A DNA stretch of 64,000 nucleotides, taken from Gossypium raimondii. Taxonomy: Eukaryota > Streptophyta > Magnoliopsida > Malvales > Malvaceae. Positions 4,427 through 59,000 of this stretch are shown one piece after another. The position numbers were made by a program, and so were the translations under genes. The DNA is taken from the NCBI RefSeq assembly GCF_025698545.1, contig NC_068565.1:496001-560000 (forward strand), read 5' to 3'. The stretch's first letter is position 1. Every line of letters starts with the position of its first letter. Below the pieces are notes generated by a model. The model had not been told where the DNA came from. It ran no database searches and worked only from the letters and a program-made list of their open reading frames with translations.

Positions 4427-7400
4427 TCATAACTTAGCCATTTGATGTTCAAAGCTTGGATCGATGCAAACGACAACCTACAGAATTTTGACAGTAATAT
4501 AAACACATTAGAGGTCTAGGTTGGTTTACTTGAATGCTCCCAATTTATTGAAAATTTGTGCTCACCTTGCCAGTACTTTTACCCGAATGCAGATACTCAA
4601 CAGCATCCGCAACCGAATGCAAACCTGAAAATCTTTTCTGGTCTATTACAACCTGTTACAGCATGTTAGGAAAGGTTTCCTAGAAGTATATCAAACACAG
4701 AACAGGATATATGTATTACCTTAAGCTTTCCTGAAGAGTAAAGATGAAACAGTCTAAGTAGGTGTTCCTTCCATAAATGGCCATACTGTACCAGGACAAA
4801 GCCAGACTGAAAAACAAAAGCTATTTTCAATTCAATCGAAGTATCAAACCACAAGATTTGAAATGCCAAAGTGCGAAGATGTATAAACATATACGATAGG
4901 ATAGAAACCACAAAATTCGCGATAACCGGAAAATGGGAAACATTAGCTCAATGAATTATCCTAAATCTATATGTATTTGGCTACAATATTGGCTTTTTTT
5001 TCATATTCTCTGAAGCTAGTCGTTTCTATCTCCAATGATACACAAACACCGCATGGATACACGAATCTTGAGGTTATAACGAAAGTATTTAAGACAAAAA
5101 TGTCAAACACAAATAGTTTAAGAGAAATGAAGAGTCACATGCGCAAATTTTACCGATTACATACCACATTTTGGCTTTTGGACAAAAGCTTCTCAAGTCT
5201 TGGGTAGTTTAATGGCGTCCACCCATTTTTCCTTTTATACTGTAAATACGAATAAGAAGTAGAACATCAGAAGCTGTAAATGATGTTAAAAACTAAAAGT
5301 TAAGGTCAAAGGCAACAAAATAAGAACAGTAACTTCCTTTTAAAATTTTAATCTCATTAGTAATAATAATAACCTGAGAGATTAATCCTATCACAATAAG
5401 TCGTCCACGGATAGCCAAAGCATCAAGACACAAATCAAACATGTTACCACCAACAGATTCATAAACAATGTCGACTCCTTTAGGAAACTCCTTGAGAGCC
5501 TGAAAGACTAAAAGTCAGATGTTCTTTTCACGAAACCAACCAAATGCAGAAATTATGCAAACTGTGGTGGGATCAGTCTCCAGAAGATTGGACATTGTAT
5601 GGATGATGATAAATGATGGCAGCTGAGATCTTTAGTCATGGAAGAGAGTGTTGAGATTAATCTCAGAAGTTTGGCCATGGATGATGATTAAAAGGATGCA
5701 ATAGTTTGAGAGTTCCAACTTCCAATCTATGTTTACTCGAATTCGGTTGTGAGTTTCAATGTAGGTAGGTGTCTGAAAAAAAAGCAGAACAATTGAAAAG
5801 AATTTCAGATACATACAGTTTTGACATCTTCAGCTTTATAGTCTATGACTCGATCAACCCCCAATTCTTTCAAAAGCCTTGCCTTTTCTTTTCCTCCGCA
5901 CGTCGCAACAACCTTATTTCCTGCAAGCTTTGCAAGCTGCAAATGTCTCTCTTATTAAAAGATGCTATAAAAAAGCAAACAGAAAAGATAAATCCAGGGG
6001 GGAAAATCTTGTTGAATCCATGAAACAAACCGTATTATCATGAAATATATCTTTGAAGATGTAAAATATGGTCATATAAAATATATAATTGAAGATGTTT
6101 TGGAAAATTAATGAAATATCATAATTCAGTATGAATAAAACTAAGACGAGTATAGAATAAAGCCTATGTTAATAGGATTCAATATGAGAGTCAGATACTT
6201 GTACGTGTTCAACATAAAACTGCTGAATTTTAAATTTTTTATATATTTAGAGGATTATATTATGTACCATATTCGAATATGTGCGAAACATTAAATGAGT
6301 ACTTCAAGACGCTTAGACTTTATTAAACAAACGATATGATAAAACACATTCACGTTGTGTTCAAATTAACTTTTGTATTGTAATAATACAAAGAGTTATC
6401 TGTTTATGTAAATTTTTATATGCTCATAGTTTCTTACATATACAAATTCAGCTACTGGAGAAATATCACTGAGTTCAAAACAAACCTGGACTGCAAATTG
6501 CCCAGTCCCACCTGCAGCAGCAGTTACAAGGACAACTTGTCCGGATTTCATCTGACCAACCTATAAGATAAAAAAAGGGGATCGGTAGTTAAGTTACTCG
6601 AATCTGGAAGTGTGTATTGGAAATGGTATATGTTTAATATGGATATGTTGATTTCTTTTTAAGTCCTTTTATATATTTGGAAAATTTTTAGAGGATCATA
6701 TTCTTATAACCATGATGTTATATGCACCAAATATGAATGTTTACATACCTTCAGAGTTAAACTTTTCATAATTAGGTGACCAAAAAAAATTTACTAATAA
6801 TTGGATGACTACTAGTGTAGTTTACTTAAAGTAATCATCTAAAGTAAGAAAAAAATTGCTATAGAAACGTACTTTTTCTAAAGCGACTGATGCTGTTAAT
6901 CCTGAAGTAAGCAAAGCAACAATTTCTGGATCAGGTCTTGGAATGGGAAGTATGTGCTTTGAAGGAACCTATGTTTAGTTGCAATATCCAATAATTATTG
7001 AACAATATAAATATGGTTTAAAAAGAGATTGAAATAGATGATGAAACAAGACCTTTATAAACATAATAAAAATAAAATTGATTTATACCTTCACAAATTC
7101 AGCATAACATCCAAAACTCATGAGAGCAGCAGGAGTTCCAACTTTCAAATTTCTTACAGAATCTCCAATGGCAGCAATTATTCCCACTGCCTGTAACAGC
7201 AAAATTGAACCATAATCATAGGATATCTGCTTAATTCAACATTAAATTAACATTTTAATGCGGATATCCAGTCCACTACCATTTCTAATTTTTGACATTT
7301 AATTAATATTTTATTTCTTCACCTCAAATCCAGCGTCAAATGGAAGAAGGGAACTAATTTCTTCCTTGGTTCCTTGAAAATACCGACCTGCGCTAAAGTT

Positions 7401-48006: not shown

Positions 48007-48071
48007 GGTGGCTATGGCTTAGGTTTGTTCTTTTGTAAGGGTTAAATTGTCATATCATTGTATTTTCTTTA

Positions 48072-48602
48072 GGTTATATTGTGTTATTAGTCCTTGTACT
48101 TCACGAAAGTTGTAGATTTGGTCCCTATACTTTAATTTGATCAGTTTTAGTCTCTATATTTTCAATTTTCAAATTTTATTCTTCACTAAATTATAATTTT
48201 AAGTTCTATTATTTTCAAAATCCAATAGAACAAACATATTATCATATGCTTAATACTATATTAGCTTGATACACTAAAACACTAATTAATGGAATAACAA
48301 GCATTATTTGTATCAAGATTGAAATTTTAAAAATGAAAGTATAGGAACTTAAAATGATCCAATTGGAGAATATTGACTAAATCTATAACTTACGCGTAGT
48401 ATCTACGATTGGTAATTGAATTTAGCCAACAAATTTAACTATTATTGTTTGGTCCATGACTAAATTTTGAAAATTCATAAAGTATAATGACTAAAAGCGT
48501 ACTAATTTGAAAAGTACATGGGATAGAATTTATCAAATTAAAGTATAGAGACTAAATCCACAACTTTCACAATGTACGAGGGATCTATGTCATATTTTAA
48601 CC
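48072..48602. mobile_element. MITE-like inverted-repeat element (family E)
   Basis: The left end GGTTATATTGTGTTATTAGT and the right end CTATGTCATATTTTAACC are imperfect inverted repeats. The arms continue to pair inward ('gttgtagatttggtccctatac' type against 'gtatagagactaaatccacaac'). A shorter relative is at about 50485-50695 in NAC intron 2-3 territory. It has no coding capacity. Confidence 0.65.
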
Positions 48603-49299
48603 ATCCTTTAGTCTAAATAACACGAGTAAGAAATGGTCTATTATAAAATTAACACCCAAAATATACCTCTTTTTCATTTAAATACCTACATTTTATTCTA
48701 TTTCATCTCATTTTACCTAAAATTTTTATGATAGATTATTTTAATTTTGAAAATCGAAATAAAATATCAAACGTAACTGAAGTTAAATCCATTGAAACCT
48801 GAAATTGTTTAAACTTAAAATTAACATATAATAAATAAAATTTAAATTTACCAAACTCAAATCGACTACGAGTTATTTTTTTTTTTACTTTTGTAAAATA
48901 TTCAAATATAATATAAATACACGAATTGAAATATTTACTCTTAAGACCTTAAACTTGATTATGATACAAAGATATTATATATATATATGTATATATATAT
49001 GAATATACTAACGGTGAATTCTTGGTTAAGAAATCATCATAATGTAGTGATCTTAAATCTCATTGAGCTTAATGAATCTGTGAAAAATAATCATGCAAAT
49101 GGTGGTATCGAAATTCCGAAACACTCAAAAAAGGTACAGAATTGGAATTGGCTCGTATCTGACTAATGATGTGGCTTATTCGGACTCAGTAAAGAGGACA
49201 CTACGATGGTGTTTAAGGAGACGAATCGGTAAACTATGTAGCATGCATTTGGAACTCCAGAGACGAGGTCGGTTGATCAGCCGCACCATCGGCTTGTTA

Positions 49300-49656
49300 C
49301 TGTTGAGAAGCAACCTGCAACATTGGGTCTTAGAGCTTCGACAAGTGGATAGTGATTCTCCCCCTGTAAATTGGCCTGATGTAACCTTTTCGGTTAATCG
49401 GAATAAAGAAGTAAAACAGAAGGACGCATATCGTTCTTTGTTGATCCGGAGTAGCATTTGCAAGAGAAGAGACTAAGGCTCATATAGGAATCGGCTGAGA
49501 ATGTTACGCATCGCGCATTGACAAATCGTATGAAACGAAAAGCACGACACCGACAATATTAAGCATTATAACTCATCCTCGAGGTAACATAATGATTTTT
49601 CCTCGATTTCCACCCCTTCGAGAACCTCTTTGAGCTTCACCCCTACCTCTAGACAT
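49300..49656 (-). pseudogene. Broken poly(A)-binding protein C-terminal fragment, copy 1
   Basis: Read on the minus strand in shifting frames, this segment shows the end of a plant cytoplasmic PABP in the right order. QRGSRRGG and MLPRG come first (the linker motif before RVYRYPPG). Then come a decayed SYDLSMRDA (normally PYDMGGMPMRDA), SQPIPI, SLANATPDQQRT, and ENHYPLVEALRPNVA, the start of the MLLE domain. Stops and frame breaks separate the pieces, and the RRM part is absent. Its first about 80 bases are read in frame as the last residues of the NAC gene. A second, shorter copy lies at 53265-53410. Confidence 0.85.
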
Positions 49657-52525
49657 GGTGTTACTCCTACTTGCTGCCATTGAATGATCTTCACTGTTCG
49701 GTCCGCCATTATTAACAGTTAGCTGAGTCATTGCTGCATTTGGAGGCCGAACTTGAAGGGCACGAACATTATTATCGATGTAATTTCCAGCCACTGTTGA
49801 TGTTGATGCTGCGTTATTAACACCTCGATGTAACAACAAACCATTCGAATAATAAGGATGATATGGCGGCCAAGTCGTGTCCGAGTTACGATTTCTAAAC
49901 ACGGTATTATTTCTATTGGCTGCTGGTACAAAAGCTTCATTGTTTAGTGCCCCATCGACGGTAGGTTGAAACCATGTATTCGAGTAATACTCGTAATTGG
50001 GCATCGGGGAAGTGGTCAATGGATACAGTTCGCTATCAGGTTGTCCAGCAAAACCCGTCATCGGATATGAAACGTTTGTTGCCTCCGAGGATGCTCCGGC
50101 ATCAAAAATTTGCGAGGAAGAACTAGTGTTGGTATTTTGATCACAACTTGCAATGTAGTTTTCGTTTTGACCCTTCCTTTGGGTCTTGTACACCTTGCAT
50201 AGAACACATGTATCAAGCTACAAAATGTAAAGTTAAATTTATTAGTAAATTAAAATAACAGTAACAACAATGGTGTATTTAAAGGTTAAATATGCTATTA
50301 GTCAAATACAAAAGAAGATCCAAAACAGCAGATAACCCAGGTGAAACCCAATAAAACATGAAAAAACAAACGAAACATGGGAAAAAAATAAAAGATAACA
50401 AAACAAAAACCTAGAAGCTTCACACAGACCCCTGCAAAATCAACAGACCCTAAACGGCAGAAAACTTCCCCTTGTTTCCGGTGAGTTTCTACTTTGTAAA
50501 AATTTTGAATTTAGTCATTATACTTTAATTTGATCAACTTTAGTCCCTATAATTAATTAATTAAAAGTAATCATTTGGTAAGGACTGAAATTTCAAAATC
50601 TTAAAAGTATAGGGACTAAAATTAATCGAGTTAAAATATAAAGACTAAATTCACATATATTACAAACTAGAGGAACTAATAACATAATTTAACCTATATT
50701 TAAACAACTTTTTAACATTCAAAGACAACATACTGCTAATTAAAATGTAAAATCATGATAAATTTTAATAAACAGTAAATGTTTCACTAAATAAATTCTT
50801 ACCATTCTTTGTAATAATAATTAAATAAAAGTAAAATTACAAAAAATATGTAAATTAATATTTCTAGAATCAATATTAAATTGACACAATGTACAAATAT
50901 TAAGGGTTAAAATTATTATTATGCTAATTTTAAAAGCTATCAAGCTATACTCCATTAGTAATTTAACCTTTGTAACAAAAAAGAAAATTTGAATAGTTAA
51001 GTCATGTTTTGTAATTTTCATAATTGTATGACCAATTTTTACTATTAAATAAATTTTATTTGATAATACAAACTAGAGACATATTAGATTATTAATTAAT
51101 AATCATATATTATATATAAATATTTGAAAAATTGAAAAAAAATATTAAAATTAAATTTGAAAGAATTTACCGTCATGCCATCCTGGGGTTTGTTTTGGGG
51201 TTTAATCAGGCTAGGATCAACTTTGTATTCATGCATTTTCCATTCAGTTTTGTGACCAGAAGGATGTCGGCCGGTGTGAAATTCAAGTGTCTTTTTGGAG
51301 CCTATAGGTTTCAGACCGCCTTCAGGGATGCTTTTATCCATTCCGGTCGGCTTCCAAAAGCCATTCTCTGTCGAACGATCTGGCCTTCCTCCGTTTGGGT
51401 ATTTTTTTCTCCTCGACGTGAAGAAATACCATTCGCTTTCTCCATTTGGTTCGTAGGACTCTAAGAGAAATATTATAAAACTTAAATTAAAAAATATAAT
51501 AAATATTTAAATAAATATAGAATAATTTTAATTTTATATCTAAATTTGAGTAAGTTGGGTCCAAGCAACTGCTCCTGGTTGCAAGTCAAAGTTAAAAATT
51601 ATTTATTAAAAAGGATAATGTAACATTTAATCCCTGAGTTTTAGAATTGTTTTCAATTTGATCCCTGCACTTTTACCTAAAAAAACTAATACGAATATAA
51701 TAGGAATAATTAAGGTTTAGTTAGGTTACCAGTGAGTTTGGCAGGTTCTGTTCCATAGAGATCAACCTCCCAAATAAGGTTAGAAGGTAAAAGTTCATTG
51801 TTAACCTTCTTCAACAAGTAATACTGAATCAATTCCTCGTCGGTAGGGACGAATCGGACTCCAGGAGGAAACGATTGGATATAGTCTTTAACTTCAGCAA
51901 CGGTTCGGCCGCCGTGAGAAGCAGTTGAGGAATTCAGCATGTTGTTTCGGTTATTGGCATTCTCCGCTGTTGTGACGGTTTCACCTCCTTCAAAAGCGGT
52001 GGTCTCGATGTTCGAAGCAACCGTGGAACTTAGAACATTGATTTGATCATAAATATTTTCCTCCTGCGTGAAGAACTGACCACCTTCAAAAGCTGTGACG
52101 TCGATGTTCGAAGCAACTGTAGAATTTAGAACGCTATTTAGGTTATAAATATCTTCCTCCTGCGTGAAGAATTGACCAACTTCATAAGCGGTGGCGCCGC
52201 CATCCGCAGCAGCAAAGCAACTTAGCGTGCTGTTTTGATTAAAAACATCTTCCATCATTGTCGCGAATTCGCTGTCTTCATAAGCGATGGCACCACCATC
52301 CGTAGCAGCTGAGTAAATTAGTATGTTGTTATAATCCTCATTCTCCGTTGTTGTGACGATTTCACCTCCTTCAAGAACGGTGGCGCCCATGTTCGAAGCA
52401 ATTAAGGGATTTGAAATATCGTTTTGGTTTTCAATATTTGCTGCCATTGTGACAACTTGATGGCCTTCAGACGCGGTGGCGCCGCCGTTAGCGGCAGCTG
52501 AGAAATTTTGCTCTTTGTTTTGCAT
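49573..52525 (-). CDS. NAC-domain transcription factor with repeat-built N-terminal extension and PABP-like tail, 3 exons
   Basis: Exons 51730-52525, 51171-51460 and 49573-50217 give 1731 nt and 576 residues. The NAC domain begins only at about residue 220: A PPGVRFVPTDEELIQYYLLK; B NLIWEVDLYGTEP; C EWYFFTSRRKKYPNGGRPDR with GFWKPTG; D KKTLEFHTGRHPSGHKTEWKMHEY; E VLCKVYK. Exon borders are at the usual NAC positions. The first 219 residues hold six tandem 31-32-residue units (9-199) related by an ATAFEGG...TxxEN...NxxL pattern. NAC proteins normally start with the domain. The region after the domain is rich in Asn, Ser and Tyr, as in NAC activation regions. The last 27 residues (SRGRGEAQRGSRRGG to MLPRG) match a PABP linker and run into PABP debris. 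A later Met at 194 is an alternative start. Nuclear DNA binding is expected; targets are unknown. Confidence 0.85.
51929..52501 (-). repeat. Six tandem coding repeats of about 96 bp in NAC exon 1
   Basis: Units cover residues 9-40, 41-71, 72-103, 104-135, 136-167 and 168-199 of the NAC protein. Units 4 and 5 are the most alike (both with GQFFTQEE), and units 5 and 6 share TVASNI and TAFEGG. The reading frame is kept in all units, one of which lost a codon. The units are acidic, Asn-rich and likely disordered. Confidence 0.88.
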
Positions 52526-53264
52526 ATTTGAGGAAAATACGATGGTACGGTAAGGAGCGATAAAATAGTACTAATTTTGGTTATCTGGGAAAAATTTTAA
52601 GCTTTCTATATTTAAATAAACAAATATTAACAAAATCAGACTTGTAGTAGGGTTAGATATAGAAATTTTAGGAACAAAAATTAAATTATTTAAAAATAAT
52701 ATATTTTAATAAAAATTAATGGTAGAAAAATAGTTTAAATAAACTTTTATAGACACTTCCGAAGCCTCTTTCAAACTTGATTATGTATTTTTTTTAATTT
52801 ATAAGTACAAAATTTAATTATTTAAATCCCATTATTATTTTTTAAATATCCTTCTAAAGTTAATTAAAAAACTGTCTTCATTAAAAATTTTGGTTATCTG
52901 ATTTTTTTCGACCATTAAGATCATATATTAATATAAATATTTATTATTTATATAAAATATTAATTTTTTGTATAATAAATATTAATTCTTTAATAAAAAT
53001 TTATAAAATTAGAGCTCAAGTTGAAGTGAATTTTTTATTTAGGAGGAATCCCTATAACACTAGGAGAGAATTTTTATTTATTTATTTAGGATGAATCCCT
53101 ATAATACTAGGAGATAATATACATTAGAGACCAACAAAATGGGAGAGAATTTTTAGGAATAAAAATAATATTATTTTAATTACCAAAAAATATTATTATT
53201 TTTAAAGAATAATTTTTAAATTTTAAAAAATAATGAGATATTGTATGGACCCGCTCCTATAGGA
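52526..53264. other. Promoter side of NAC gene, AT-rich
   Basis: Very AT-rich DNA with no gene. The phrase around 'aggaggaatccctataacactaggagagaattttta' is repeated once at 53041-53120. Confidence 0.5.
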
Positions 53265-53410
53265 ATCGGCTGAGACTATTATGCATCGCCTATTGACATA
53301 TTGTATGGAACGAAAAGCATGGCACCGACAATATTAGGCGTGATAACAACGGGTAGACCATGTCCCGGTGGATAGCGATAGACTCGTCCTTGAGGTAACG
53401 TTTTTCGTTT
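53265..53410 (-). pseudogene. Poly(A)-binding protein fragment, copy 2
   Basis: On the minus strand one open frame reads LPQGRVYRYPPGHGLP, then PNIVGAMLFVPYNMSIGDA and a stop, followed by SQPIPI. This is the plant PABP linker (RGRVYRYPPGR...GGMLSVPYDMG..MRDA...QPMPI), better kept than copy 1 but shorter. It is in the same orientation as copy 1, 3.8 kb away, with the NAC gene between. Shared non-PABP details (ATATTGTCGG, the SQPIPI with CTATA afterwards) indicate the two copies arose from one fragment. Confidence 0.85.
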
Positions 53411-53782
53411 AAGTGAACCATAGGATGAAGTATTAACGAATCAAAGATGTCATAAAATTCGAGCGATGATACAAACCAGCTGCTGTATTGACAGAACTGT
53501 TGCTGTCATAACAAAAGGAACTATTATCATATGCTACTTGGACTCGAGTAGCGACAATTTTAATCAACTTATAGCTCGAGATGCTTTCTTCGGAGACGAA
53601 AGCACAAAAAACTCCGATCCTTTACTCATTCCACTAAGGTCTCACATAATATGTTATATGCATACGCTTTAGCCACATGATTGCTAGAACTAATCGAACT
53701 TAACCAAGTACGATAACCGATCTAGCATGACGAATGGTAATATATTGAGAATAACCCCTTAAGCTTTCCATTGGATATGCTC
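53411..53782. other. Unassigned, GC-richer gap between two gene fragments
   Basis: On the minus strand a short frame contains VATRVQVAYDNSSFCYDSNS and then NTAAGLYHR before a stop near 53432. I do not recognise it. It could be a remnant of another exon carried with the neighbouring PABP and LRR fragments. Confidence 0.35.
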
Positions 53783-53958
53783 TCATCCAAATTTGAGAAC
53801 ACCATTAGTAGTAGTAGATGATGAAGAAGAACCAGAACCAGTAGATTCTTTTTTCTCAGATTCTTCAATGGAATTCGAATTATATCCATTTTCCCCTTCC
53901 ATACAAGGAAACCATTTGAAAGACTCTTTCCTCTCATAACTCAATTTTCTCGAGAAAA
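53783..53958 (-). pseudogene. Truncated duplicate of the 3' end of the proline-rich LRR gene
   Basis: On the minus strand it reads ESFKWFPCMEGENGYNSNS, then EESEKKESTGSGSSSS and NGVLK before a stop. This is a diverged copy of the last about 55 residues of the intact gene at 54581-56086 (ESFKWIPCMAGKNGFHSNST...). The match also covers the preceding 'ttttctcgagaaaa' and stops abruptly at about 53960, next to a MITE. The rest of the duplicate gene is missing. Confidence 0.88.
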
Positions 53959-53965
53959 AATTACC

Positions 53966-54560
53966 GGTTAAAATATGCCATCAGTCCCTATACTCTTCCA
54001 AAATTTTATATTTAGTCTCTAGATTTTTATTTTTAGGAATTTAATCTCTCTGCTTTTTAAATTTCAAATTTCAAGGTCAATTGTTAAAGCTATTAAAATT
54101 ATTGATGTGATATTTTGAAATAAAAAAAATCTTAGTAATCACATAATTAAAAAAATAACATAATGAACACAGGCGACGGTAGGAGCTTGTAGGAGCCCTG
54201 ACTCGTTAAATTAGAAATTTAAATTTTGGCCATTAGTACATAGTAAAATTACACTTTGACCTTTTAAAAATGATAAAATTTTAATTTAGTCATTTAAAAA
54301 ATCATGAAGATATAAGCTATTAAAATTGTGAAATTCTATTTTAGCTCATAAAATTACACAACTTAATTTCGCCCCCAAAAAAAGATTTTGGCTTCACTCC
54401 TTCTAATGAATCTGAATCTAATAAAATAATTTTAACAGTATTAACAATTGGTCATGGATTTTTTAATCTGAAAATAGAGAGATTGAATTTCTGAAAATAA
54501 AAGTAAAATGACTAAATTTTAAATTAGGAAAGAGTACAGGGACTTATAACATATTTAACC
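53966..54560. mobile_element. MITE family C, copy 3, split by a nested MITE
   Basis: It starts GGTTAAAATATGCCATCAGT and ends ACTTATAACATATTTAACC, inverted repeats as in 23945-24312. Its length above the usual 370 bp is due to the family-D insertion at 54170-54404. It sits between the LRR gene stop (54581) and the truncated duplicate. Confidence 0.8.
54170..54404. mobile_element. Mutator-like MITE family D, copy 2, nested in family C
   Basis: It starts near AGGCGACGGTAGGAG and ends GGCTTCACTCCT, as in 27118-27378. The flanks share TAATGAA (54161-54167 and 54405-54411), a partly eroded 9-bp target duplication. Confidence 0.7.
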
Positions 54561-54580: not shown

Positions 54581-56086
54581 TCATAACCGATGAGGTTTAA
54601 GAACACCATAAGTAGTAGCTGACGGCGAAGAAGAACTAGAACCAGTAGATTCTTTTTTCTCAGATTCTTCAGTGGAATTTGAATGAAACCCATTTTTCCC
54701 TGCCATACAAGGAATCCATTTGAAAGATTCTGTTCTATCACAAATCAGTTTTCTCGAGAAAAACATAGCACAATCGGCTTTTGATCGTTGCTCCGGCAAA
54801 TCCAAGATACAGTTGTTCTTAACGTTGAGCTTCTTCTTCATTACCAAATCCCGGCATGCCGGTCCGACTTGGGTGAAATAATTACTCGACAAAGACAAGT
54901 TTTGAAGATTCGATAACCGGCAAACGATTTCCGGTACTTCGCCGTAAAATTCATTGCCGGCTAAATTGAGTTGCTCCATCTTTTTCAAACAACCGAACGA
55001 ATGTGGTATCGGCCCGGTTAGTTTATTCATTCCGACGTCAAAAACGGTGGCGTTTTGTAAGTAGCCGATCTCGTACGGTAAACAACCAGTGAGTTCGTTG
55101 TTGAGGAATAGTACTTCGAGGAGGTTTTTAGCTTTGCCAATACTTGGCGGGATCCGACCGGTGAACTTGTTGTTTGCAAATGTTATGTATAACGCCGGTG
55201 TATCGCCTAAATTTTCCGGTAGACGTTGCCTGAAATTGTTGTTGTTGATGAAGAGAACGTCGAGGTCTAATTTGAAAACTGTCGCCGGAACGACGCCTTT
55301 GATTCGGTTGAACCTTATATCGAGGAAAGTTAATTGTGTGGCACGGAGGACTTCCATCGGGAAATCGTCGGTGATCTTGTTGTTACTGAGATCAAGTTCG
55401 TAGAGGTATTTGATTTTGGACGTTCCGATGAACGGAACGGTGCCGGTGAAGTTGTTGGAATTGGCATGGAAAATGGCTAAATCTGTTAATCCGTCGATGA
55501 AATCGTGGAGTGGAAGGGAACCATTGATGCCGGAGAGCTTAGCGCCGTTGAAATCGACGGCGGCGACTGCTTTTTTTTTCACGTCCGGTCGCACATCACA
55601 ATTGAAGCCTTTGTATTTGCAAACGTTGGGACCGTTCCATGTTTTTGTGTATCTTTTGCCATTTTCGTCTGGTTTGATTAGCTTCTTGAACTTTTGGATT
55701 ACTCCATAAGATGTTGCGAGCAGTTCGTTTTCGAAGCAGAGGTTGCTGCTCCGGTAACCACATTTCGACGGTGGTCTTGGCGGTGGTTTTGGTGTTGGTG
55801 GTGGTGGTGGTGGTGGTGGTGGTGGTGGTGGTGGTGGTGGTGGTGGTGGTGGTGGTGGAGATGCTGGAGGTGGACATTCAGGTTCAGGTGGCGGAGGAGG
55901 ACAATCTTCAGGCGACGGAGCAGGAGCTTCACCGCCGCCGCCGCCGATAATGATCTCTAACGTTTCCCTGTTAGTCCCAATGAACGGATACAGACCACCA
56001 TCATCATTGTCACTAACCACCTCGTGAGACCAACAAGAACCAAAAATGGCGATCAAAACTAAAATCGAAAGAGAAAGATTACCCAT
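54581..56086 (-). CDS. Secreted proline-rich LRR protein (LRX-related, At4g06744/At3g19320 type), intronless
   Basis: One 501-residue frame. A signal peptide (1-20) is followed by an acidic/Gly stretch and a proline-rich region at about 55-106 that includes some 20 consecutive prolines. Then comes the LRX-type N-cap with conserved Cys (CGYRSSNLCFENELLA, TWNGPNVCKYKGFNC). About ten plant-type LRRs follow (165-430, for example NKFTGRIPPSIGKAKNLLEVL, and NKLTGPIPHSFGCL), with a C-cap of paired Cys and a Ser-rich tail. In true leucine-rich-repeat extensins the proline domain follows the LRRs; here it comes before them and lacks SPPPP extensin modules. It is expected in the cell wall, where LRX relatives bind RALF peptides; that is inference. 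A TTATATAA box lies about 41 bp upstream of the start. A truncated duplicate lies 600 bp downstream. Confidence 0.93.
   Translation of the reverse strand: MGNLSLSILVLIAIFGSCWSHEVVSDNDDGGLYPFIGTNRETLEIIIGGGGGEAPAPSPEDCPPPPPEPECPPPASPPPPPPPPPPPPPPPPPPPPPTPKPPPRPPSKCGYRSSNLCFENELLATSYGVIQKFKKLIKPDENGKRYTKTWNGPNVCKYKGFNCDVRPDVKKKAVAAVDFNGAKLSGINGSLPLHDFIDGLTDLAIFHANSNNFTGTVPFIGTSKIKYLYELDLSNNKITDDFPMEVLRATQLTFLDIRFNRIKGVVPATVFKLDLDVLFINNNNFRQRLPENLGDTPALYITFANNKFTGRIPPSIGKAKNLLEVLFLNNELTGCLPYEIGYLQNATVFDVGMNKLTGPIPHSFGCLKKMEQLNLAGNEFYGEVPEIVCRLSNLQNLSLSSNYFTQVGPACRDLVMKKKLNVKNNCILDLPEQRSKADCAMFFSRKLICDRTESFKWIPCMAGKNGFHSNSTEESEKKESTGSSSSSPSATTYGVLKPHRL
55795..55859 (-). repeat. (CCA)n coding microsatellite for the polyproline run
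   Basis: About 20 perfect CCA codons on the minus strand encode the polyproline block of the LRR protein. Length changes would keep the frame, so allelic length variation is likely. Confidence 0.9.
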
Positions 56087-59000
56087 TGTTTTTCTTTGAG
56101 AAATTGAGTGAAAGGCTATGGTGGATTATATAAGATTTAAAAAATGAGGGCAATAGGGGTTACCATAATTGAAGGGAAAGTCAAGGTTCACGACATGGTA
56201 CAAAGTTGGATCGTACTGTTTTTGTCTTGGAAAATGAAAGTTTTGTTAACAACTGCTTGCTTTGTTACTCGATTCCCTTTGCATAATTGCACCTTAATAA
56301 CTTCTTCTCATAATTTTTTTGTTTTTCTTAATTATTTTTAATTATAAGTTTAAAATTTTCTATTTTAGTCATTAATATTATCAAAATTTAATATTTGGAT
56401 TATTAATCACTGATAGTAGCTCTTTTTCATTAGTGTAATAATAAATATAGTCCTTAAATATTTCTGATTCTATCAATTTAACCTTAATCTTAAAAATTAA
56501 ATTTAATCCTCAACTTTACACCTACTATTACTTCTTAAAAATTCAAAATAAAAATTTATTTAAATATTTTTATAAAAGTACAAAAGATTGTATAAAATAC
56601 ATACAAATTTATAAATGAACGAGTATCCATTTTCTCTTTTTTCCTAACATAAAATTTATTTATTAAAATAAAACATTTAAAAAAAATCCACAAACAATAC
56701 TTGAACTAGATTCAAAATTTTCCTTTTTTTTAGTTTATTTTATAAATACTAAATTTTATTATACATCTAGCATTGCTTCTTAGTCATCGTCAAATTTGTC
56801 AAGCATTGGGCAACGCCTTCTCCCACAACCACAAGCACCAATAACCTTTACTCTAGACTACTTGATTTCCATATTCTCCATCATCGCACCATCGAACTAG
56901 GATTTGGTAGTGGAGTTGCTCTCATGGCCTTCCACCTACTGAGTTCATAAGACTTCATCCCCAAATCATGCTCGTCCTCAACTACGACCTCAAACGCAAC
57001 AATCCCATTCTAAGCAACAACCTAAAGCATTGATTCTCACCCTTTTTGACTTCAAGTTATAGCTTTTGACTCAACTTGAATATGGTGATCGTTAATGTTG
57101 AAAAAAGGAAAATTTTGAACTTGCATAAGTCATCTTCGTGGTTTTTCCCTTAAATTGTTTTATTAATAGTATTATTTTATATATATAATTATTATTTAAT
57201 AAATAAATTTCATGTTAGAAAATGAGTAAAATAACATATTCATTTATTTACAACTATTTTGTATGTATGTTATTGAATAAGAAATTTTAAATAATTTTTA
57301 TATTTTTAAAGTTTTAAAGTTTTCAAGAATCAAGACTAAATTGACAAAATCGTGTAAAGTTGAGGGTTAGATTTTCATATTTAGAACTAAATTGATAGAA
57401 TCTATAAACATTGGAGGGCTAAAATTGTTATTATGCCCATAAAAAGCCATCGTTAGTGATTTTAATAGAGAAGTTATCAAAATATTAAATTTCAATAACG
57501 TTGGGGACTAAAATATAAAATTTTAAACCTAAGTGACCAAAGCAAGAACACATTAATAACTGGGTGATTATTTATTAAAGTACCAGTCTCGAGTTTAATC
57601 TGTACAAAAAGATCTTATTTAAAAGGATTTGGATAAAAGTATTAGTTTAATTGGCATAGTTGACATTACAACAACTTAGAGACTCTAGTTAGCATCAATC
57701 TCGAGTACAATCTTTACGAAGAGATCTATTTGATATTTGAAAGGACTTGAATAAAAATATTAATTCAATTGGTATCATTAATGTTGTGAAAATTTAGATG
57801 AATTTAAACACCAAATATCTTTCACTTTAGCAATAGGGGGATTGTGGGTAATTTAAGCAAATATGAACCCAAAAATTTGGTTTAAATAAAAAGGGTGAAA
57901 GTGCCTATGAAGTCCCTCCATTAAAGGGATTTCATCAAATTAGTCACTCTACTATTAAATGCATCAATTTGATATTTGTTCTAAAAGAAAAATTAAATAA
58001 TGTCAAAACCTAACAAAGTTAACATTTATAGATGAAAAACTCAAATGAAAACATTTTATTTTCATTTGCAATCTCCTAGCAAAAAAAATCATTTGCAGTC
58101 GAATAAAAAAGTTACAAAATATAACTTAGTTAAACTTGTTCGTAGATTGGATCAAAACTCAAAATCTAAGAAAAAAACGTTGACCAAATTAAAGATTTAC
58201 TCTATGTATTTAAAAAATTAGAAATTAAGCCCTTCAACAGTTTTGATTTAAAATTGTCAGTCCAGACATTAAAACCGTAAATATTTTTTGTAAAAATTTG
58301 TCAAATTAGCATATTAATTGAGCTGCCCATGTATGATCTGTTGATGGAAAATAAACATGATGGCAAATTTTAACAGTGACTATAAATCATGTCGACGGTT
58401 GAATTAAAATTTTTAAATTAAAAAGTAATATGATTAAATTTTTAACTTTTAAATTACAGAGAAAATCTCGAATTCTATAAAAAATATAAAAACTAATAAA
58501 GTGTTTTAATCAAATGAAATCTATATCTATCCAATCAAGTAGCTTGAAATGTCACACTAATTGCTTTTTTTAAGAATAATATCCAACTAGCTGAAGACAA
58601 CTTAAAAAAACCCTTTTTAAAAAGTTATTTTAGAAGAAAAATACCAAGATGGGGACAAAACACAACGTTGTCGTTTTGCATGGAATAGTAGCCAAGCCAG
58701 TTAAGAGTAGGTTCACATGCATAACAAAACCAAAAGGAAAAAAATCAAATCCACTTTGCTTTTAGAAATTTCAAAATGGGCCCTATACTTTTTAACCCTT
58801 TGCAACCTAAGCCTATCTCTTTTGAATGGTGGCAGAGTAGCTGGTCGTGTAGAGATGGGCCAACGCCGACGGTTTTGTTTGTTTTATTGCTATTCATCGG
58901 CGTCTTGGGGGTCAAGTTTTGCTCTCATGAGCCCCAAATTGCCATGTGCATTTCGGCATCTATAATGTCTATGTCATATTACGCTAAAAAAATATCGAGT

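Follow-up and report, generated by a model that had tools for sequence, protein, structure and literature searches.

A question raised by the NAC gene described here is why a protein of this family would carry an array of tandem repeats ahead of its DNA-binding domain, and whether that array is translated at all. The gene lies on the minus strand of the window (the whole 64,000-nucleotide stretch of Gossypium raimondii DNA that was analysed) and looks complete, with three exons (52525-51730, 51460-51171 and 50217-49573) that are separated by GT/AG introns and read as a single continuous frame of 576 codons. Exon 1 (51730..52525) begins with the ATG at 52525, contains the array, a partial further unit and the start of NAC subdomains A/B, and ends at a donor GT after 51730. 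Most of the remaining NAC domain is encoded by exon 2 (51171..51460), and exon 3 (49573..50217) supplies the end of the domain (LDTCVLCKVYK), followed by a C-terminal region that is divergent and rich in Asn/Ser and runs to the stop codon at 49573-49575. The arrangement that the original prediction had described, in which six in-frame repeats of about 96 bp are followed by a NAC domain within one exon, is thus present in the sequence, with an open frame and a NAM match.

The gene is a member of the NAC family, as established by the conserved positions of its domain and by a Pfam NAM match (PF02365) at residues 220-345 of the spliced protein that exceeds the curated cut-off (137.1 bits versus 27; E 5.6e-40). 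Over nearly its whole length the NAC part can be aligned with domains of known structure, those of SNAC1 (3ulx, E 1.3e-40), ANAC019 (1ut4, E 6.3e-38) and ANAC092 (7xlj, E 9.1e-37). Where a position is counted as near-invariant if at least 90% of 45 other rows of the same genome share one residue, the gene keeps 37 of 42 such positions and has changed five, including an A to P substitution that turns WKATG into WKPTG. Other loci deviate as much or more, namely L013 (12 of 41), L054 (8 of 42) and L022 (5 of 36). In a tree of 46 rows, comprising the array gene and 45 other loci with both exons, the gene has a long branch (2.29) and no neighbour with support, and its highest identity to any row of the tree is 57% (L038, 118 columns). 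If translation starts at 52525, the domain does not lie at the N-terminus, which is otherwise a criterion for the family, and begins instead from about residue 220; the 219-residue extension that had been predicted agrees with this position.

Several other repeated sequences occur in and around the gene. A 95-bp direct repeat flanks it (49478-49572 and 53253-53347, 81 of 95 positions identical), the lower copy beginning right after the NAC stop codon and the upper copy lying about 730 bp above the ATG. The upper copy is overlapped by an open frame of the minus strand (53279-53440), which resembles the end of the NAC gene's frame across the stop codon (43% over 37 columns, E 2.5e-4 within the window), and thus the last NAC codons may sit in the duplicated segment. 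The intergenic stretch above the gene also holds a 47-bp tandem duplication with 90% matches (53030-53118). Farther up, a proline-rich, leucine-rich-repeat frame at 54584-56125 on the minus strand is extensin-like by eye, and what seems to be a fragment copy of its tail, with the similar ending SEKKESTGS, is found on the same strand about 0.8 kb below (53783-53980). Intron 2 of the NAC gene contains an imperfect palindrome (50488-50671, 73% over 192 columns), to which pieces at 48070-48202 and 48504-48602 are related; it has the look of a small inverted-repeat element.

The array itself opens exon 1 as six head-to-tail, in-frame units that extend from 52525 to 51953 on the minus strand. Unit 1 (52430..52525) starts at the predicted start Met and is followed by unit 2 (52337..52429), unit 3 (52241..52336), unit 4 (52145..52240), unit 5 (52049..52144) and unit 6 (51953..52048). 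Unit 2 encodes 31 residues and each of the others 32, so the six 32-residue units proposed earlier were correct in number, but the second is one residue short and about 21 codons of a partial seventh unit have to be added. This seventh unit (51889..51952, minus strand) adjoins the NAC domain in frame, and it was matched at 51951-51889 with an E of 3e-7 by a DNA profile derived from units 1-6, which recovers those six by construction but from which the seventh had been left out. The same array had been placed at 51929..52501, which is 24 bp out of phase with the units delineated here. With E≤10, the profile found no further unit in the intergenic stretch from the ATG to its upstream limit, and its sole other row in the window was 55053-55032 (E 1.7).

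Chance repetition is ruled out as an explanation for the array, since self-comparison of residues 1-212 at an offset of 32 gave a BLOSUM62 score of 290, versus a mean of -21.5 and a maximum of 31 among 3000 residue shuffles for which the best of offsets 10-106 was taken each time. Being head-to-tail, in frame and beyond chance, the copies fit a coding tandem repeat of the minisatellite-like kind. The units differ in length by one codon only, and no stop interrupts the 212 codons. Tandem Repeats Finder reported a 96-bp period in two overlapping rows (51983-52253). A gapless direct-repeat finder with default settings did not report the 96-bp family, because most unit pairs are 54-75% identical and one codon is missing from one unit, which points to a limit of that program. 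No Pfam entry matched the array, and the search for a known fold among PDB sequences returned only a Cas1 chain (E 1.2), which was taken as chance.

Such a layout is rare in its genome. A genome search with exon 1 as the query (E≤0.001) gave at least 93 matches, which comprised the array gene, one relic of the array discussed below and at least 91 other NAC exons. Fifty-two other loci were read, 47 of the 91 with their flanks and five more that were picked for long open frames. Their same-exon leaders, counted from the first Met up to where the match begins, span 0 to 59 residues, the longest being that of L010, and none of these 52 loci has a similar leader in the same exon. In the remaining 39 loci no open frame exceeds 143 residues in total, and since NAC sequence takes up at least about 44 of these, a same-exon leader of 212 residues does not fit.

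How the array grew can be approached from the similarities among its units. At the nucleotide level units 2 and 6 are 75% identical, units 4 and 5 74%, units 3 and 4 70%, units 5 and 6 69%, and units 4 and 6 60%. The earlier suggestion that units 4-6 are the most similar is correct only in part, as the highest value belongs to units 2 and 6, units 3 and 4 rank third, and units 4 and 6 are well below. The closest relationships also change along the unit. Over codons 22-32, units 4 and 5 are 94% identical and units 2 and 6 are 87%, with the other 13 pairs at 48-61%; over codons 1-12 the highest pairs are units 5 and 6 (72%) and units 3 and 4 (69%), and over codons 13-21 the same two pairs again rank highest (both 81%). 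The array is thus a mosaic of the kind that unequal crossing-over or gene conversion among units would give, and this pattern contradicts plain stepwise growth of units 4-6, which had been proposed and which is too simple. From the partial unit beside the NAC domain, it would seem that the NAC gene's own leader gave rise to the array. A segment of about 96 bp directly before the domain would have been tandemly duplicated in frame, and the copies would then have diverged and swapped pieces to leave six units and a partial seventh.

The assembly contains a relic of the array at another site (G000 C6:11526839-11526967, which is 4840-4968 of locus L009). It came from the search with exon 1, whose query included the NAC part, and was the sole repeat-only match among the matches listed (DNA-profile E 3e-17). 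Over 82 bases the relic matches the junction of units 2 and 3 at 72 positions (88%), the one-codon deficit included, and its second half is nearest to unit 1 (78% over 74 columns). Since the order of the halves differs from that in the NAC gene, an array with a different order must once have existed, either here or in a relative that has been lost. A second gene of the same layout in the genome was considered and rejected: at least one repeat-only match is listed, and the 9.9 kb that surround the relic contain no NAC match.

The composition of the array is one-sided. Residues 1-212 contain 30 D+E versus 3 K+R, for a net charge of -27, and are 12.7% Ala, 12.3% Asn and 10.4% Thr; the description of the repeats as acidic and Asn-rich is therefore accurate. 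Windows of 39 residues with a net charge of -5 or below and at least five W/F/Y/L residues start nearly without a break from residue 33 to 151. The same rule, with its home-made cut-offs, is also satisfied by windows that begin at 228-244, within the NAC domain, and at 400-423, within the C-terminal part, and is thus non-specific. A charge-hydropathy rule put the array barely on the ordered side (0.127 vs 0.151), yet it wrongly put the folded NAC domain on the disordered side, which makes it uninformative for the array.

It is possible, although we consider it less than probable, that the array is translated but functionally idle. On this account a minisatellite-like leader grew neutrally under relaxed selection and was tolerated since the DNA-binding domain remained undisturbed. 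Weak constraint between the units makes this a serious rival. The pooled pN/pS of the six units is about 0.78 (0.349/0.447), and differences between units fall on the three codon positions in nearly equal numbers (166, 185 and 177), with no excess at the third. Selection on the unit sequence consequently looks weak, and of the evidence against a sequence in tight use this weighs most. The long branch of the NAC domain itself and its five altered near-invariant positions, the change in WKATG among them, fit the same account. It is opposed by the 37 near-invariant positions that the domain has retained, by the charge of the array, which has remained one-sided, and by the intact frame. After about 131 substitutions the array has acquired neither a stop nor a frameshift, whereas in a neutral simulation that placed 131 substitutions on a consensus unit all six units were stop-free in only 43 of 3000 runs (mean 4.1 stops), a crude estimate based on a star phylogeny and a simple model of mutation. 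Moreover, an acidic arm may need its composition alone, which would be compatible with a pN/pS of about 0.78.

An alternative that we regard as improbable is that the array is not translated, and that transcripts start within or below it and are read from an internal Met to yield an ordinary NAC protein whose short leader has about 24 residues ahead of the Pfam match. Such a Met is present in frame, at residue 196 rather than at residue 194 as had been predicted, and a short leader would follow the family rule seen in the 52 other loci. Translation from Met196, however, must bypass Met1, four further in-frame ATGs and 9 out-of-frame ATGs, a bypass avoided only if transcripts begin below almost all of these codons. 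Nothing interrupts the frame within the array, its first ATG is Met1, and the 200 nt upstream of Met1 are free of any ATG. From the ATG at 52525 onward the GC content is exon-like: units 1-6 have 44.7%, the remainder of exon 1 43.9%, exon 2 45.9% and exon 3 43.6%. The two introns, by comparison, have 22.3% and 21.9%, and GC jumps to about 22% directly upstream of the ATG, where two stretches have 22.0% and 14.9%. GC by itself is no proof of coding, since the stretch past the stop codon (49200-49572) also reaches 43.7%. A TATA-like string, TATTTAAATATAG, is located 81-93 nt upstream of the ATG (52606..52618, minus strand), but it is weak, lies in a very AT-rich stretch and was given no weight. 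The neutral simulation described above, crude as it is, also favours translation. Taken together, the open frame, the exon-like GC and the position of the first ATG indicate that translation of the NAC factor probably takes in the array, most likely beginning at the ATG at 52525. They strongly suggest that the protein carries an acidic stretch of about 212 residues before an essentially complete NAC domain.

An assembly artefact or a false joining of two unrelated sequences is highly improbable, given that the units differ by 25-45% at the nucleotide level and so represent neither collapsed nor duplicated reads, that the partial seventh unit continues in frame into the NAC domain, and that a diverged relic (88% over 82 bp) occurs elsewhere in the assembly; nothing was found in its favour in the single assembly examined.

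The reading that we prefer, and to which we would give about an even chance as a whole, is that the array is a real, translated N-terminal region of a fast-diverging NAC factor, that it originated by duplication of the leader, and that it serves as an acidic contact arm beside the dimer interface. If the array has a working mode, such an arm would be the most likely one. Subdomain A and the N-terminal strand of the NAC domain serve dimerisation according to the available portions of two reports (PMC3654982, PMC7147800), and acidic activation domains are described in an excerpt of a third as combining acidic with hydrophobic clusters (PMC7767404). Like the solved NAC domains, the protein would bind DNA as a dimer, and two acidic arrays would then leave the domain beside the strand used in dimerisation. 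Each array could offer repeated contact segments of low specificity that combine acidic with aromatic or hydrophobic residues (e.g., QFFTQEEDIY) to co-activators or other partners, a role that would be TRD-like but on the N-terminal side. An extended version, in which the array is a modular acidic arm that varies in copy number and in which gain, loss and exchange of units tune the factor's strength or choice of partners between lineages, so that a coding minisatellite at the N-terminus would set the output of the NAC protein, is improbable.

Regions ahead of the NAC domain are already known, and the original prediction that no NAC with such a layout had been described does not stand in the form given: N-terminal regulatory regions have been reported, but no NAC headed by a tandem 32-residue array was found among the matches listed from the open-access literature, as far as the text of those sources was available. 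In the portions of two articles that could be consulted, some NACs have an N-terminal regulatory region and a C-terminal NAC domain (PMC10651149, PMC12175250), and an extract from another describes SiNAC129 as having an AT-hook before a C-terminal NAC domain (PMC3654982). NACs of the SOG1 type have N-terminal extensions of about 40 residues (PMC7767404, in part), and chimeric NACs include one with 13 PPR repeats ahead of the domain (PMC7147800, in part). For cotton, the figure legend of a NAC layout scheme (PMC6057059) has no such array, nor is one mentioned in the available passages of two other cotton papers (PMC5797638, PMC10744133).

Comparison with these systems helps to place the gene. 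It shares the whole-length NAC domain and the common three-exon split with canonical NACs of the SNAC1/ANAC019/ANAC092 type, but differs from them in the 212 residues of tandem array ahead and in its fast-diverged domain. Like the atypical NACs of PMC10651149, PMC12175250 and PMC3654982 (SiNAC129), as partly available, it has a long non-NAC region before the domain; unlike them, it also has a C-terminal region of about 200 residues, and its N-terminal region is a tandem array, of which the consulted portions of those articles make no mention. The SOG1 sub-group, as outlined in the accessible part of PMC7767404, likewise has an extension before the NAC domain, the extension of the array gene being repetitive and about five times longer. 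Peach ppa008301m provides a smaller parallel, in which, from the available part of the report, a 9-bp in-frame tandem duplication of three residues co-segregates with maturity date (PMC3854093). In both genes an in-frame tandem duplication alters a region that does not bind DNA, but the cotton array has a 96-bp unit in 6.6 copies, is old and diverged, and lies N-terminally instead of C-terminally.

These observations concern one gene in one assembly, and the general picture of the family is so far unchanged whichever account is correct. An idle array would show how much freedom a NAC protein has to lengthen its N-terminus. If the array is translated and active, the gene would represent a natural experiment on how a plant transcription factor gains a regulatory arm by duplication of its own leader, and the arm would flank the DNA-binding domain on the side away from the usual regulatory region of NAC proteins.
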